A DNA stretch of 46,131 nucleotides from a virus. The first letter of the stretch is position 1. Each line of letters begins with the position of its first letter. The notes under the pieces were generated by a model. The model searched no databases. It was not told the DNA's origin and was given only the letters and a program-made list of their open reading frames with translations. Location of the stretch: positions 1-46,131 of IMG/VR virus record IMGVR_UViG_3300047316_000145, one strand, 5' to 3'. Made by a program: the position numbers and the translations under genes. Below, in pieces: positions 9,718 through 32,558 of the stretch.

Positions 9718-11162
9718 TTGTCTTGTTCGTGCAGTGCGATCGCCACGGCCTGGTCTTGCGGCTTGCCTGCGGCGATTTCTGTCGGGATGTCTTTCTTCGG
9801 ATCGCCCGTAAGATGATCCTTTTTCGGTGTTGCCGGCGCTTGCGCGGGCTTGCCACCTTCGGGGTCAAGGGTCGTTGCACGCGGCAACGCGGCCCAAGTC
9901 GGGGCATCGTTGGGGTTGTACACGTTGTCAGCGCTGTATTCGCCTTTACCCCAGCGATCTTTCCAGATCTGTTGCGGGGTTGCGGCGCCCATTTCTTCGT
10001 AGATCTTGTCACCCTGGGCCACGGACAGACGATAGTCCGCCTCTTCCTTGGGCGACATTTGCCACATAGAAGGCCATTCGATCTTGACCTCGCCGTTGTA
10101 ACCCATGCTCTTGGCCAAGAGGTTCAAGAGCATCAAGAGCGGAGGTTCCACGACGCGCTTACGCTCAGCCGCTACCTTGTCGTAGAAGATGCGGATATCA
10201 ATTGCGCCGGTCGCTTGTAGCCCCGCGGGGGACTCACCGAGTAGGACCGCTACCGGGATACCCGTGGCTGCGGCCAACTTCTTCCCGAACAGCATCACGA
10301 CGTCGCTTGTACCGCTGAATTGCGTAGCGACCTTGGTAAATTCCTCTTCCTTGTCTAGGAACAAGGCACGCGCGACCGATCGCGACATGTCGAGTAGCAT
10401 CGCGCGGGTTTTCAAGAGGTCGCTTTGCTTGCCCGCAAGCCCGGAGATTAGGCCCTTGAGCTTGATCACGGCCTGTGATGCGTCGGACAGCATGATACCA
10501 GCGCTGTGGAACGCTTCGTCGAACGCCTGGATATCAGGCAAGAGTGCTTGCAGGATCGAATAGTCCCATCCACGGTTACCTCGGCGCGTTAGATCGTCCG
10601 TATGAGCTCCACCGAAGCGGATCATACGGGTATGATGTACCTCGGCGCTACCACCCTCGATCCCCCATAGGAGCCACGACTCCGGGTACAGCATATGCGG
10701 ACCCTTGGGCATGGCGAAGCGCGGATCGAACACCTCGAGAAATTCAAGTGACTTGGCCTTGGCCCAGTCCAACGGTTCTGACGGGTCTCGGCCGTCGTTC
10801 ACGCCAGCCCAGATCAGGGTACCGCCGAACAGGCGCCCGAACACCTGAGCATCAAAGAACGCTTTGAACATGCCCATGGCAACGGCGCGACGGTGAATTC
10901 GCTCAGCCCATGCCGGATCGTCGCACTTGACCTCGACACCTTCGCGCCAGGCTTCCTCAACCGGTAGCGCCACGATCTTCCGGGCGGTGGAACTACCGTT
11001 ATAAATTGGGGCTAATTGAATTGGCCAAAGGGGAAAGTCTGGGATGAAAACACTTTGAGTAGTCCGGTCGCGACTCGTCCCGAATCCCGTCAGAGCATTG
11101 GCCCAGCTGTCCAAATGAGCCAAAGGTGCGGACATCATAGTCAACGCTTTGAGGTAGTTCAC
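9714..11162 (-). CDS. Portal protein (DUF1073 family)
   Basis: 482 residues. A GTG start overlaps the HNH stop (GTGA). Family features seen in order: DFPLWPIQLAPIYNGSSTAR near residues 44-63, ARKIVALPVEEAWREG, FDAQVFGRLFGGTLIWAGVNDGRDP, then the stem/wing region and GIPVAVLLGESPAGLQATG, and finally MLLNLLAKSMGY. These are hallmarks of DUF1073 portals, which form the dodecameric DNA gate. A flexible tail (PAQAPATPKKDHLTGDPKKD) precedes a C-terminal PQDQAVAIALHEQ segment that is common at the end of phage structural proteins. Pfam relates this family's N-terminus to the anti-CBASS Acb1 group, but nothing here suggests more than a portal. Confidence 0.85.
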   Translation of the reverse strand: MNYLKALTMMSAPLAHLDSWANALTGFGTSRDRTTQSVFIPDFPLWPIQLAPIYNGSSTARKIVALPVEEAWREGVEVKCDDPAWAERIHRRAVAMGMFKAFFDAQVFGRLFGGTLIWAGVNDGRDPSEPLDWAKAKSLEFLEVFDPRFAMPKGPHMLYPESWLLWGIEGGSAEVHHTRMIRFGGAHTDDLTRRGNRGWDYSILQALLPDIQAFDEAFHSAGIMLSDASQAVIKLKGLISGLAGKQSDLLKTRAMLLDMSRSVARALFLDKEEEFTKVATQFSGTSDVVMLFGKKLAAATGIPVAVLLGESPAGLQATGAIDIRIFYDKVAAERKRVVEPPLLMLLNLLAKSMGYNGEVKIEWPSMWQMSPKEEADYRLSVAQGDKIYEEMGAATPQQIWKDRWGKGEYSADNVYNPNDAPTWAALPRATTLDPEGGKPAQAPATPKKDHLTGDPKKDIPTEIAAGKPQDQAVAIALHEQDK

Positions 11163-11629
11163 GCGATGAACTCCAATACAGTCTTTGTATGCTTACGCAT
11201 ATTGCACATCGCGCACGACGGGAAGAGATTGTCAAGAGTGTGCGATCCGCCTCGCGAAAGCGGCGTCCCGTGATCCCAATGCTCCACAGGGCCGATCGTA
11301 CCACGCAAAGCGCAGTAGAAGCACCTGTTTTCAAATTTCGCAAGCCTTTCTTGTAGTTGCGCCGACGAGATTGGGTCAACCGATACGCTAGCTTTCAGCG
11401 CTCGACGTTTTCTAGACGCCTCGCTCGCTTTTTCTGGATGTTTCTTTTGCCAGCGTAAACAGGCGCTACGGAAACGTTCAGGATCAATCAGGCGGATTTT
11501 TCTGGCGTATTCTCTATTTTTAGCTCGAATTTTTTCGCTTTGTTTGTAGGCTTTGATTTTTTCTTTATTCTTGAGTTTTGAGCGTTTACACCATTCTTTT
11601 TGTTTCTGTTTCCTTTCTTCAGATGTCAT
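11159..11629 (-). CDS. HNH endonuclease between terminase and portal
   Basis: 156 residues. An N-terminal run of basic repeats (KSKLKNKEKIKAY-like, RSACLRWQKKHPEKASE) precedes a zinc/HNH core: CFYC, then VEHWDHGTPLSRGGSHT-DN and CAMCNMRK. All metal and catalytic positions expected for an HNH enzyme (C-C, H-D-H, N, C-C) are visible. The gene is joined by ATGA to the terminase and by GTGA to the portal, so it is fully embedded in the packaging operon. In HK97-like phages an HNH enzyme cooperates with terminase; a homing role is the alternative. Its coding sequence is clearly richer in A+T than the flanking genes. Confidence 0.85.
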   Translation of the reverse strand: MTSEERKQKQKEWCKRSKLKNKEKIKAYKQSEKIRAKNREYARKIRLIDPERFRSACLRWQKKHPEKASEASRKRRALKASVSVDPISSAQLQERLAKFENRCFYCALRGTIGPVEHWDHGTPLSRGGSHTLDNLFPSCAMCNMRKHTKTVLEFIA

Positions 11630-28492: not shown

Positions 28493-28683
28493 AGACCACC
28501 CCGGTTCTCAATCGCCCACTGCCTGGCAAGTTCTTCGCATTCGTTGGCGAAGGTTTCGGCCGTAGCAACGGCTTGCTTGTCGAGTAGGTCCCCGACCGAG
28601 ATACGGCGCAGGTACGTCGCAAGGTCCTGGTACTCGGCTGCACGGAAGCGGTACACGGCAAGTTCTTCCGGGGTTGCGTTCAT
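28489..28683 (-). CDS. Small helical protein, unknown function
   Basis: 64 residues from the ATG at 28681-28683 (ATGA). It has the pattern MNATPEELAVYRFRAAEYQD with the helices LATYLRRISVGDLLDKQAVA and TFANECEELARQWAIENRGG. It looks like a compact helical protein of the kind encoded beside replication or lysis genes in phages. No function assigned. Confidence 0.6.
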   Translation of the reverse strand: MNATPEELAVYRFRAAEYQDLATYLRRISVGDLLDKQAVATAETFANECEELARQWAIENRGGL

Positions 28684-29045
28684 TTCCCCTCCGCAGGCGT
28701 CGCGACACCGAAGCGGCGACAGAGCACCTTGGCGGACGCATCGCAATGCCAAACCTCGCCGTCGACAACGAACCACGCTGTAGGCTGATATCCGGGGTTG
28801 ACGGGCTGGGGATGCGCGCAGCCCGCGAGCAGAAGGAAGCCACCCATCATGACGGCGCGAACGCGAGCTCGCAACGCTGCGTCGCTCTCGCGGGGCTTGC
28901 GCTTGACGTTGTAGGCGCTAGCGAAGCGGTCGAGAACATCGTTTTCTGTCAAAGGTCGTGAGCGCGAACGCTTCTGGATCACACGGACCGTGTACCCCAG
29001 AACCACACCGAGCACGAAGCACACGAGGCCGAATAGAGCGATCAT
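28680..29045 (-). CDS. Membrane protein with internal lipobox, possible spanin-like component
   Basis: 121 residues from the ATG at 29043-29045. The N-terminus is a membrane helix (MIALFGLVCFVLGVVLGYTV), followed by a basic helical middle (VIQKRSRSRPLTENDVLDRF). Then comes MMGGFLLLAGCAHPQPVNPG, which looks exactly like a lipoprotein signal with lipobox L-A-G-C and starts with two Met codons (28845-28850). The last 45 residues are secreted-type with two cysteines. It could be one protein or two nested in-frame products, an inner-membrane protein and a lipoprotein, as in some spanins. Ribosome sites do not decide it. Confidence 0.55.
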   Translation of the reverse strand: MIALFGLVCFVLGVVLGYTVRVIQKRSRSRPLTENDVLDRFASAYNVKRKPRESDAALRARVRAVMMGGFLLLAGCAHPQPVNPGYQPTAWFVVDGEVWHCDASAKVLCRRFGVATPAEGK

Positions 29046-29100
29046 ACGCCGAAAGGCCCGGCCCTTTGCAGGGTGCGGGCCGGAGCGGCGTTTAGATGAA

Positions 29101-29403
29101 TTAGTCCCCGCAAGAATTGATGTGGCAGGTAGCACCGCACGTTTTGCAGGTCGCCGGTGCGCGGGGAACGCGAGCGACGTTCGGCTGACGTTTCCAAGCA
29201 GAAGAACCGTCGGCAAACTTCGCGTTAAGGTTCGGAAAACCCTTGTCCTGAATGCGCGAAACCAAGCGTGCCGCGTCGAATGCGCTGGCGAAAACTTCCT
29301 GGTGATAAAACGTTTCCCACATATCGTCGAACGGCTCGCGGTTAAGGATATGAACGCTGTAACCGCCGCCAACCTTAGCCGTACCAATCAGGTCGTTTCG
29401 CAT
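29101..29403 (-). CDS. Small zinc-ribbon protein, unknown function
   Basis: 100 residues from the ATG at 29401-29403, preceded by a purine-rich ribosome site (GGAAAGGAAAAAGAAA). A small alpha/beta body (GGGYSVHILNREPFDDMWET) ends with the cysteine cluster CKTCGATCHINSC. It may be a zinc-binding accessory. It lies downstream of the intrinsic terminator, so it probably has its own promoter in the gap 29404-29479. Confidence 0.6.
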   Translation of the reverse strand: MRNDLIGTAKVGGGYSVHILNREPFDDMWETFYHQEVFASAFDAARLVSRIQDKGFPNLNAKFADGSSAWKRQPNVARVPRAPATCKTCGATCHINSCGD

Positions 29404-29479
29404 TTTCTTTTTCCTTTCCAACCGCCCGCAAGTCAATACATAACGCACGTTAGTTACCCTGTCAACAGTTGGCAGAAAA

Positions 29480-29511
29480 AAACCGCCGTGACCTTGCGAT
29501 CACGGCGGTTT
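29480..29511 (-). terminator. Strong intrinsic terminator (minus strand)
   Basis: A perfect 12-bp stem: AAACCGCCGTGA (29480-29491) pairs with TCACGGCGGTTT (29500-29511) around an eight-base loop. On the minus strand the stem is followed by a run of seven or more T residues (plus-strand A-run around 29476-29482). It ends transcription from the 90-residue gene upstream. No other gene lies between it and that gene's stop. Confidence 0.9.
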
Positions 29512-29545
29512 CTCCCTTCGGGGGCAGTTAGAGCCCCTCCGGAAG

Positions 29546-29818
29546 TCAAATCGGCGTCTTGACCTCGAACGGGTGCACGTCGTAGTGCCCGTTCGTCTTG
29601 CTCTTGCGGAACGTCACGACGTCCGTACCGAACTTGAAGGGACCCGAGACGCCCGAGGCCTCGATCAGGGCTTCGACGTTCTTCGCGCTCGCCGCATCGT
29701 GCTGCTCCAAGGCCTGAAGAATCATGGCGCGCTTGGCCATGTCCTCGGCAACGGGGCCCTTCGCGTTCTTGATAGCTTCGGACTTCTCGGCCATGGCTTG
29801 CTTCGACAGACGGGGCAT
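29546..29818 (-). CDS. Isolated small basic/helical protein with strong expression signals
   Basis: 90 residues from the ATG at 29816-29818, with an AGGAGGAAAGATC ribosome site (a strong Shine-Dalgarno) directly upstream. The sequence starts MPRLSKQAMAEKSEAIKNAK and has a helix (AMILQALEQHDAASAKNVEA), then a small strand end (GPFKFGTDVVTFRKSKTNGH). It is a single-gene transcription unit with its own candidate promoter and terminator, suggesting high or independently timed expression. It may be an early regulatory or DNA-binding protein. No family recognised. Confidence 0.7.
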   Translation of the reverse strand: MPRLSKQAMAEKSEAIKNAKGPVAEDMAKRAMILQALEQHDAASAKNVEALIEASGVSGPFKFGTDVVTFRKSKTNGHYDVHPFEVKTPI

Positions 29819-29873
29819 GATCTTTCCTCCTGGGTAAAAACCCTAATGTCCCGTCAACGTAGCACCTGTGGTG

Positions 29874-29902
29874 GTTGTAAGGCAACTTATTTCGTTGCAC
29901 AA
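29874..29902 (-). promoter_or_regulatory. Candidate promoter for the isolated 90-residue gene
   Basis: On the minus strand TTGTGC (29897-29902) is followed at exactly 17 bases by TACAAC (29874-29879). The -10 matches the consensus at four of six positions and the -35 at three. A GCAAC/GTTGC stem-loop overlaps the spacer. It would start transcription about 48 bases before the ATG. The assignment is a pattern match only. Confidence 0.35.
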
Positions 29903-29942: not shown

Positions 29943-30149
29943 ATGCAAACCGTCATCCTCGAATACGGCGCCCAGCGCTACACGGTCCAGGTGGAACACG
30001 TCGCGCAAATCCGGCGGTACGCGCCTTGGCTCAAGGTTCGTACCCGGCCGCGGCTGCGTCTTGTCCGCGGCGGCCGCGCTACTTCAAGCGCTGCGAGTAA
30101 CTCAGGGCCGTCCCGTGTGACCCGGCAACGTCATCGTCGCGCACGGTAA
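29943..30149 (+). CDS. Possible small plus-strand protein
   Basis: 68 residues from the ATG at 29943, with a GTGAGG ribosome site about seven bases upstream. The first 40 residues are a plausible small beta/basic domain (MQTVILEYGAQRYTVQVEHV), but the rest is arginine-rich and overlaps the 3' end of the convergent propeller gene by 71 bases. It may be a real gene with an overlapping 3' end or a chance frame. The N-terminal part is the best evidence. Confidence 0.4.
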   Translation: MQTVILEYGAQRYTVQVEHVAQIRRYAPWLKVRTRPRLRLVRGGRATSSAASNSGPSRVTRQRHRRAR

Positions 30150-31386
30150 CGAGGCGATTGTCCACCAACTGGATCGCGCTCAGGCTGCTAGACGTCCCGG
30201 CCTCGGTCGTCACAAGGTTGTTACCTTGGATGACGTCCCAATCTTGGCCTTTGTTGCGTCCTACGGCCAACATGCCGACGATCTGGGCGTCCGGCGTGGT
30301 GAATTGCGCGCTCGCGACTACGAGCCCTCCCAGGGCCGCCATGGGGACCACAGCGCGGGACGTGTCGATCAAGTGCTCGGCTCGAGAACGCGAGAACGAA
30401 AACGCCGTGATCGTCGCCGCCAAGGTCCACGCCGCACCCGTGGGCGACGTCCAGACCTGCGTCAACCCGCCTCCCTGGATCAGCGCGTAGAAGAGATGAT
30501 CGGCTTCGTTCCACACCAGGCCGGCGAAGGGCTGCCCGGTCGCGACGGTCGCGTGCGTCCACGTCACGGCGTCAGCGGAGTACCAAACATTCGCATCGGC
30601 CCCTACGGGTGACGGCGCGGCGATCACGACGTTCGAGGTACCGCAAGCAATCATCGGGGCGATAAAACCGGCTAACGTCACCCCCGACGCACCGGGAAGG
30701 CTCGGCATCGCCAGGGTGCCGGCGTTGCCGGTCGTGCTCGCGGGCAGGAACGTGAAGACGCCAACGTGCGGGCCCGAGACCTCGCCGGCCCCGACCCATC
30801 GGCCGTTGAACCATCGCGCGGCGTAGGTTTTCTGTCCGTTGGCAAGGGTGAACGTCGTCCCCCATGCGCCGTTCAGCCCGCGGCGAGCGTACACTTGCCC
30901 GGCACCCTGCGAGATCCAAGCGAACAGTCCATGTCCGGGACCGTAGGCGATCTGGTACGTTTCGCCCGCGCCCGAATTCATGGGCGCACCGTCGTCGATC
31001 CAGGTCTCGCCGTTGGACGAGCGGAGGACGCGCGGTTTGGAATCGTCCGTCTGGTCTTGCCCGGCAACAAACAGTTTGAAGTTGTCCGCCTCGTAACAAG
31101 CGCAGTTGTCCTGCAAGAGGTTCGCCAGGTCGTGCGACGCCCCAACCGGAATGATCGGATCCGACCAATTCCTAGCCTCGATCGTGTCGTGGTACGCGAG
31201 CCAGATCCCCATGCTGTTGAGGATCCAATTGACCACTTGCGCGGGCAAACGGGTGGACGGCGCGAACCCCTGCGCGGTCAAAGTCGCGCCCGGGTCGGTC
31301 TTGGTCGGGGTGGACGACCACGGGTCCGCGCCCGCGGGGTAGCTGGCTGTCGTGGCCCAAATAGGTACGGCGCCGCTCGGCCTCAT
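30079..31386 (-). CDS. Tail fibre / receptor-binding protein with Asp-box propeller repeats (copy B)
   Basis: 435 residues. It starts MRPSGAVPIWATTASYP, the same opening as the adjacent upstream gene. Asp-box-like beta-propeller repeats recur: SSNGETWIDD, SADAVTWTHA, SPTGAAWTLA and a final NKGQDWDVI. These S-x-D/N-x-x-x-W strands are the signature of sialidase-type or BNR propellers. It probably forms a receptor-binding or carbohydrate-binding domain at the end of the tail. It is the last gene of the lysis/baseplate operon (ATGA coupled). Whether it has enzymatic activity cannot be told. Confidence 0.6.
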   Translation of the reverse strand: MRPSGAVPIWATTASYPAGADPWSSTPTKTDPGATLTAQGFAPSTRLPAQVVNWILNSMGIWLAYHDTIEARNWSDPIIPVGASHDLANLLQDNCACYEADNFKLFVAGQDQTDDSKPRVLRSSNGETWIDDGAPMNSGAGETYQIAYGPGHGLFAWISQGAGQVYARRGLNGAWGTTFTLANGQKTYAARWFNGRWVGAGEVSGPHVGVFTFLPASTTGNAGTLAMPSLPGASGVTLAGFIAPMIACGTSNVVIAAPSPVGADANVWYSADAVTWTHATVATGQPFAGLVWNEADHLFYALIQGGGLTQVWTSPTGAAWTLAATITAFSFSRSRAEHLIDTSRAVVPMAALGGLVVASAQFTTPDAQIVGMLAVGRNKGQDWDVIQGNNLVTTEAGTSSSLSAIQLVDNRLVTVRDDDVAGSHGTALSYSQRLK

Positions 31387-32558
31387 AGTCGCATGCTCTG
31401 CCTAAGGGCACAGTTGGTAGCGTTGTTCAACATGACCAAAGAGTCTCCAGCGAGGTAGATCCCGAACGTTGGATAGGACAGGTCTGCCTTGCCTTGCGGC
31501 GCCTGGATGAGCGACCACGAGCGCAGCGCGTTGGTGCCGACGAGCAAAGCATCGGACGCCAGGCCATCGGGAACGGTCGGGCGGAAGGTCGCGACCACGG
31601 CGTCGCCCAAGCCCCCGACCGCGCCGCCGAAGGTCCCCGACGCTTCGAACCCCGTCACGACTTGCGACCACAGGACGCCATTAGGTGAGGCCCAGATCTT
31701 CCCATCGGCGATCGCCACGAAGACACGCGACCCGGGAAGATAGGAGAGGCCCGACAGCGCGACCCACGGGACCATGACGGCCTTAAACGCGCTCGCCACG
31801 CTCGACGTGCGCCACAGTTGGGAGGTACTCGCCACGATGCGATCGCCCGGAGACGTCGCGCCGAACATGATCGGAGACGCGACAGCGCCAGGCAGCGCGA
31901 GAATATCCCAAGTATCAGCGTCAACGTTGACAGACCACGCCTTGAGGATCGTCCCGCCTGTTGAGAGACCGACCACGATGAAACGGTTATCAGGCTCGGC
32001 CCAAAAGGCATGTTGGATAATACCAGCGGGTTGATTCGTGCTCGCGATCCATCCGACCATGCCGGCATTCGAATTGAGGTAGGCGAACGACGGCAGCAAG
32101 ATGCCCGCCCCTGACGTCAGCCATGTGAAGTACCGTCCGTCATCGGAGCATGCGTTCTGATAATAGGCCGTCGGATCTCCTCCTGAGTGACGGAAAGGTA
32201 GACCCCCGGATCCGTTCGTCACTTGTGACCAAGTGTTCCCGCCGTCGTAAGAGTAGGAGAGTTGCCCGATTGAATTGTCAACCGCGTGCAACCCACCGAA
32301 GAACCAAATCTTACGAATGGGATCGTAGGAGAAACAATCCGATCCGATCGCGGTATTGTGGATCGGAACGGTCTTGCTCCCGCTCCAATTCAGCACTTCG
32401 TACGCGTCGCGAGGGACAGCCCAATCGCGCACCCCTTGGCGGATCGAATAATTCGCAATCTTCTCGTCGAACGTCCCCGGGGTGAAACCCACCCCCGGTG
32501 CGGACACGACAGACGTTGGATGATCCGCCCAATCGGGGAATTGACCTAGAGGCCTCAT
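31383..32558 (-). CDS. Tail fibre / receptor-binding protein with Asp-box propeller repeats (copy A)
   Basis: 391 residues, coupled by ATGA to the baseplate gene upstream. The opening MRPLGQFPDWADHPT repeats in the neighbouring paralogue. Repeats of the Asp-box type include SYDGGNTWSQV, SPNGVLWSQV and NVDADTWDIL. A SDDGRYFTWL segment and several W-x-F strands fit a beta-propeller of sialidase or BNR type. It is probably a host-recognition protein attached to the baseplate. The paralogy with the next gene implies two alternative or assembled receptor-binding parts. Confidence 0.6.
   Translation of the reverse strand: MRPLGQFPDWADHPTSVVSAPGVGFTPGTFDEKIANYSIRQGVRDWAVPRDAYEVLNWSGSKTVPIHNTAIGSDCFSYDPIRKIWFFGGLHAVDNSIGQLSYSYDGGNTWSQVTNGSGGLPFRHSGGDPTAYYQNACSDDGRYFTWLTSGAGILLPSFAYLNSNAGMVGWIASTNQPAGIIQHAFWAEPDNRFIVVGLSTGGTILKAWSVNVDADTWDILALPGAVASPIMFGATSPGDRIVASTSQLWRTSSVASAFKAVMVPWVALSGLSYLPGSRVFVAIADGKIWASPNGVLWSQVVTGFEASGTFGGAVGGLGDAVVATFRPTVPDGLASDALLVGTNALRSWSLIQAPQGKADLSYPTFGIYLAGDSLVMLNNATNCALRQSMRL

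Follow-up and report, generated by a model that had tools for sequence, protein, structure and literature searches.

A conserved small-protein gene with apparent expression signals of its own in a lineage of contractile-tailed phages

The host-takeover module of phage SPO1, attributed to Stewart 1998, reportedly encodes small proteins of unclear function with strong individual expression signals. According to the title of a reference in PMC12282133, the genes of this module are clustered in the terminal repeat. Phage morons, in the account given in PMC6814406 (citing Juhala 2000 and Hendrix 2000), are said to take no part in the lytic cycle.

Here we analyze a gene for a 90-residue protein in virus record IMGVR_UViG_3300047316_000145; the whole stretch of DNA analyzed, 46,131 bases, is called the window. 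Measured against morons as PMC6814406 portrays them, the gene is alike in standing singly between operons with a promoter-like site and, judged by sequence, a terminator of its own, and in its variable orientation and neighbours; it differs in not being sporadic, since each of the five related phages found has it. The likeness to the SPO1 module would be an analogy in signals only, a small protein with strong individual signals, and the locations differ: the SPO1 genes are clustered in a terminal repeat, whereas this gene lies between tail genes and the small terminase.

Proteins encoded in the window include a tail sheath (PHROG 205), which identifies a contractile-tailed phage, a major head protein, a DNA polymerase, an exonuclease, a ParB-like protein, a GH25 endolysin, a small terminase (PHROG 6299, E = 5.6e-6) and one XRE-type regulator that matches repressor and regulator families. 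No convincing integrase match was found among the window proteins scanned for function, and the majority of long gene-like open reading frames (ORFs) lie on the minus strand. A megablast search of phages with window positions 20001-45000 gave no match, and the annotated phage records searched held no close relative of the lineage; the top polymerase match, MW202816.1 (28%), was dropped because its gene layout differs.

The gene and its signals in the window

The features of the locus are as follows.

29546..29818, minus strand: gene for the 90-residue protein, ATG to stop (ORF call; homologs in four other phage records)
29826..29831, minus strand: AGGAGG ribosome-binding site (read from sequence), 7 nt before the ATG
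29856..29885, minus strand: candidate promoter TTGCCT-18-TACGTT, the best upstream site (18% of shuffles reach its score)
29476..29514, minus strand: intrinsic terminator with T tract and a perfect stem of 12 bp, which extends further if pairs in the loop and T tract are counted (hairpin scans, folding)
29943..30149, plus strand: divergent small ORF of 68 aa, its first ~36 codons conserved in the closest relative, in antisense overlap with the end of the tail-fibre gene
29101-29448, minus strand: next ORF beyond the terminator (ORF list)

The initial annotation had described an isolated single-gene unit with a strong ribosome site, a candidate promoter and a perfect 12-bp stem terminator. The gene and its ribosome site were recovered as described, and the inverted repeat (29480-29491/29500-29511) is complementary at 12 of 12 positions, its end overlapped by a run of seven Ts on the minus strand (29476-29482). 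The terminator region folds with −46.5 kcal/mol (z = −5.6), which none of 200 shuffles equals. A strict hairpin scan of both strands ranks this terminator first in the window (−24.6 versus −11.7 kcal/mol for the runner-up), as does a scan that allows mismatches (−27.8, with the next distinct hairpin at −24.0), bearing out the terminator claim; on the plus strand the hairpin folds too (−19.6), but its T tract there is poorer. The candidate promoter is likewise present, but 18% of shuffled sequences match it and a stricter promoter/terminator scan lists no promoter in the window. The hairpin is absent from that list too, which holds four other terminator-like sites in the window against 3.0 expected. 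The unit is self-contained as proposed, but 'isolated' is too strong a word with ORFs adjoining on both sides (29943-30149, plus strand; 29101-29448, minus strand). The gene sits among small genes, with tail genes on one side and the small terminase on the other, a position that is uninformative on the timing of its expression.

The divergent small ORF was compared with the relatives separately. It matches a minus-strand ORF in the closest relative (L002:8376-8528), to which it is 55% identical across 31 aa when the two sequences are compared directly (E = 3e-11), and the divergent starts of the two genes lie about 120 bp apart in both phages. It adjoins the gene for the 90-residue protein in two of the five phages and is absent beside it in the other three; one weak match lies elsewhere in G029, a 27-codon frame at L045:11033-11113 (E = 0.0023).

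A five-member protein family

The 90-residue protein had been said to have no recognisable family, and we found no match in Pfam, PHROGs, NCBIfam or PADLOC-DB and nothing below E = 0.79 among PDB sequences. With the window protein as a single query, searches of plasmids, genome_contigs and viral_contigs returned no relative. Four relatives were found in contigs of uncultivated phages, each fetched through another gene. The first, at L002:8647-8910 in G001, was reached via a tail fibre of 79% identity and is 35% identical to the window protein across 68 aa (E = 2e-8 in a search of that locus). A two-row profile identified a third member at L026:18581-18931, in a contig reached via a baseplate protein (E = 2.3e-8 and 8.2e-7), and two further members lie in contigs reached via the small terminase, at L037:8240-8488 (E = 8.8e-10) and L039:10631-10939 (E = 5.7e-5). 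A small-terminase scan of viral_contigs yielded four records, all four of which contain a family member. When viral_contigs was queried with the G001 member, or with the alignment of two rows, G001 itself was the only record returned, and tblastn searches of phages with each of the five members found no relative.

The five members are 82-116 aa long and share the pattern GP[F/H]K...FRK. In held-out profile searches of 12,936 ORFs from 38 sources, each member was the first match outside the training rows (E = 8.6e-7, 3.9e-17, 1.8e-9, 1.1e-20 and 1.7e-14), while the best unrelated forward match had E = 0.12 and the best reversed-sequence match 1.9; the test is only partly independent, since the alignment was built with all five rows. 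The search pool included the ORFs of MW202816.1, none of which is among the best seven matches listed for any profile. Applied to 29 fetched records, several of the non-matching ones being short fragments, the five-row profile necessarily recovered the four records that had contributed to it and left 24 without a match; the remaining record, G012, matched weakly (E = 0.0077) and was not counted as a member. A small-terminase profile, run on 17 of the 29, found a terminase only in the same four. A match in a Pseudomonas jumbo phage (E = 0.5) was rejected as antisense inside a large gene. Against PHROGs and Pfam, the best E values of the five members were 0.049 and 0.14.

The gene is thus present in four other phages, the conservation on which the initial proposal had been made to depend. 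On these sequence comparisons the 90-residue gene is real and conserved, and it appears to found a new small-protein family with a gene arrangement of known kind, turning a former orphan ORF into a five-member family with conserved gene architecture. With five phages known, the gene is found in all members of the lineage recovered and would be core to it.

Transcription signals and neighbouring units

A strong hairpin follows the gene in all five phages. It ranks first among the hairpins of the window, of L003 and of L026, and it takes second place in both L037 and L039; for the relatives, these ranks are over the loci named. The best promoter-like site upstream of the gene is sigma-70-like in every case and ends 32-60 nt before the start. 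Singly, each such site is weak evidence (equalled by 18% of shuffles in the window and by 5, 5.3, 1.3 and 7.7% in the relatives), and combined by Fisher's method they reach about p = 0.001. In the window, G001 and G020 the gene shares its strand with the tail genes; in G028 and G029 it is instead on the strand of the small terminase and runs against the tail genes. Because the hairpin is retained while the strand changes relative to both flanking units, the arrangement is best read as an autonomous unit; such strand variation would be expected of an independent transcription unit.

These observations bear on two other accounts of the locus. The gene might be the ordinary last gene of a late operon, its hairpin serving as the operon's terminator and its promoter being a chance match. 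In the window and G001 it does follow the fibre gene on the tail strand, so that read-through from the tail operon could also reach it there, and the promoter match in the window is weak and passed over by the stricter scan. However, the hairpin is kept on the other strand in G028 and G029, further same-strand ORFs lie beyond the terminator in the window, and promoter-like sites occur in five of five phages; we consider this account quite unlikely. We give a similarly low probability to an accessory gene of the moron type that would carry its own promoter and terminator, be dispensable for the lytic cycle and serve, for example, in anti-defence or superinfection exclusion. Its own promoter-like site and terminator, an intergenic position between operons and the shifts in orientation and neighbours among relatives all suit such a gene, but morons are accessory, yet this gene is present in five of five lineage members found, and the PADLOC search gave no match.

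Neighbouring promoters in three sister phages carry a sequence dyad of the type TACGTCA-N4-TGACGTA or TGCGYCA-N4-TGRCGCA. These promoters, several of them near-identical, precede ORFs of 64-252 aa wherever the next ORF was read, and are located as follows.

L039:5009, 7376, 8112, 9096 and 11010, plus strand: near-identical dyad promoters, inverted repeat in the −35/−10 spacer
L037:3386, 7404 and 8554, plus strand: dyad promoters, inverted repeat in the −35/−10 spacer
L026:18346 (minus strand) and 19061 (plus strand): dyad promoters, inverted repeat in the −35/−10 spacer

The five promoters of G029 follow the pattern TTGAC-N(1-2)-RTRCGTCA-N4-TGACGTA and lie in a 12.5-kb locus around the small terminase, with no further dyad in the other 35.7 kb examined of that record; the ORF downstream of the fifth encodes 93 aa, and those downstream of the other four 64 to 252 aa. 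All five dyads of G028 (two exact, three with one mismatch) fall within the terminase locus, and G020 has two dyads together with the variant at L026:19061. No dyad was found in the 150 nt upstream of the family gene in any of the five phages (N3-N5 gap, up to 2 mismatches); in G001 this stretch holds one unlike 15-mer with a one-base gap. The window and the examined parts of G001 lack the dyad altogether, and the contrast between the family gene and its neighbours accordingly covers three of the five phages. The dyad resembles an operator signal and possibly marks a phage regulon around the small terminase. Its absence at the family gene fits separate control, though not specifically early control.

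Expression level and role of the protein

We scored codon choice against capsid and sheath usage (sheath only in G028). The five members score 0.791, 0.751, 0.830, 0.779 and 0.878, in every case above the mean simulated from capsid/sheath usage, with a margin of only 0.006 in G001; simulations from other long genes reach the score of the family gene in 0 to 0.9% of cases. In the window the gene has the highest score of 27 genes compared, and when 15 long genes are cut into overlapping stretches of its length, 8 of the 346 reach this value. When simulations are matched for GC3, however, 4.9, 19.9, 6.2, 63 and 21% reach the score; this control weakens the excess and indicates that the codon signal is mainly high G+C at third positions. 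Before it was applied, 7 of 28 neighbouring genes, including four in G029, likewise stood out at the 1% level or below (the 28 are free of in-frame stops; window 28699-28492 contained a stop and was left out). The family gene tops its neighbour set except in G001, where ORF L002:7554 scores 0.767. The suggestion of a highly expressed protein consequently survives in part: codon choice is like that of capsid and sheath genes in all five phages, but the GC3-matched control removes most of the signal. By its sequence features, the gene is probably strongly expressed.

The window and G001 differ in how far their proteins have diverged. Identity is 62% for the capsid, 66% for the sheath, 66% for the portal, 59% for the tape measure, 73% for baseplate J and 79% for the tail fibre, while it is 35% for the family protein, 40% for the small terminase, 44% for the polymerase and 28% for the primase. 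In the family gene, differences are spread flatly over codon positions (37, 35 and 39 in 81 codons), which reflects saturation and is not evidence of purifying selection. It is mainly because the family protein has diverged far more than the virion proteins that we prefer a host-directed, non-virion role, which on this comparison is more likely than a structural one. The small terminase, polymerase and primase have diverged about equally, so fast divergence is no proof of a host-directed role.

A structural role would take the form of a late virion-associated or morphogenesis protein made in many copies (a decoration protein, an internal head protein or a tail-fibre chaperone), encoded at the end of the late region ahead of a terminator. 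Several facts are compatible with it: in the window the gene comes after the tail-fibre gene and shares its strand, its codon use is capsid/sheath-like, it occurs in all lineage members found, and one member has a weak, non-significant match to a PHROG tape-measure family (E = 0.049). Speaking against it are the low identity to the nearest relative (35%, where virion proteins have 59-79%), the three ORFs between the gene and the fibre gene in G001 and the location of the gene opposite the tail-gene strand in two of five phages. We regard a virion role as unlikely.

The properties of the protein narrow its possible functions. All five proteins are without cysteine and without a strongly hydrophobic stretch, and have a net charge near neutral (pI 9.0, 9.1, 5.5, 6.8 and 8.0). 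A holin or membrane role was rejected because the top 19-residue hydropathy is 1.39, and a DNA mimic because the proteins are not acidic overall. The G028 member is predicted (pLDDT 84.4, pTM 0.52) to form a helix at residues 6-45 followed by strands at 50-53, 59-67 and 70-77. The window protein, modelled from three sequences, shows the same order of elements at a pLDDT of 60.7, too poor to use; a structure search of the PDB with this model had a best E of 1.8. With the G028 model, Foldseek searches of the PDB and BFVD found nothing below E = 0.1 (best 0.72 in the PDB), and the best VIA-align Z was 3.8. A profile search of PDB sequences reached E = 0.03 at best, in a match confined to the helix. 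Structural matches to the two models, among them HU, Pur-alpha, Cren7 and MIP-type helices, all had E above 0.1 or Z under 4, and none was accepted as a relative.

Our preferred reading, which we hold tentatively and at somewhat less than an even chance, is that the gene is a core, self-contained unit whose product is an abundant, soluble, non-virion protein of the host-directed (takeover) type, transcribed independently. According to this reading, a sigma-70-like promoter and a strong ribosome site would serve this core gene of the lineage alone, and a strong terminator would insulate it against the convergent units of tail and terminase genes. Host RNA polymerase would transcribe the gene independently of the tail operon and, in the three sister phages, independently of the operator-like dyad found at neighbouring promoters. 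The protein would be made in large amounts and act stoichiometrically, as a host-directed, non-virion protein of the takeover type. It would be small and soluble, with a long N-terminal helix, a three-stranded sheet and invariant GPxK and FRK; oligomerization would probably take place via the helix, and a host macromolecule would probably be bound via the sheet carrying the invariant K and RK.

A stronger version of the host-directed reading is doubtful: a new abundant host-directed family, core to an undescribed myovirus lineage, whose insulated and operator-free unit would be expressed before, or independently of, the remaining programme. The gene is a specific candidate for encoding an abundant, host-directed protein in a lineage for which the annotated phage records searched offered no close relative. 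Proof of a host-directed role would make the protein a new small inhibitor, and proof of a structural role a new abundant virion protein.

Three further observations concern other parts of the window. At 28680-29040 (minus strand), overlapping frames resemble a spanin pair by eye, one ORF being membrane-anchored and the other encoding a lipobox protein (LLAGC); the long frame 28680-29387 of this putative spanin region has no Pfam match. An HNH endonuclease, possibly a homing endonuclease, is encoded at 11159-11629 (minus strand; PF01844, E = 1.4e-8) between large-terminase-like and portal-like ORFs. The tail-fibre region contains two tandem genes for apparent paralogs (30079-31386 and 31383-32558, minus strand), the protein of 30079-31386 matching the relative's copy of the 31383-32558 protein at 25% identity (E about 6e-9).
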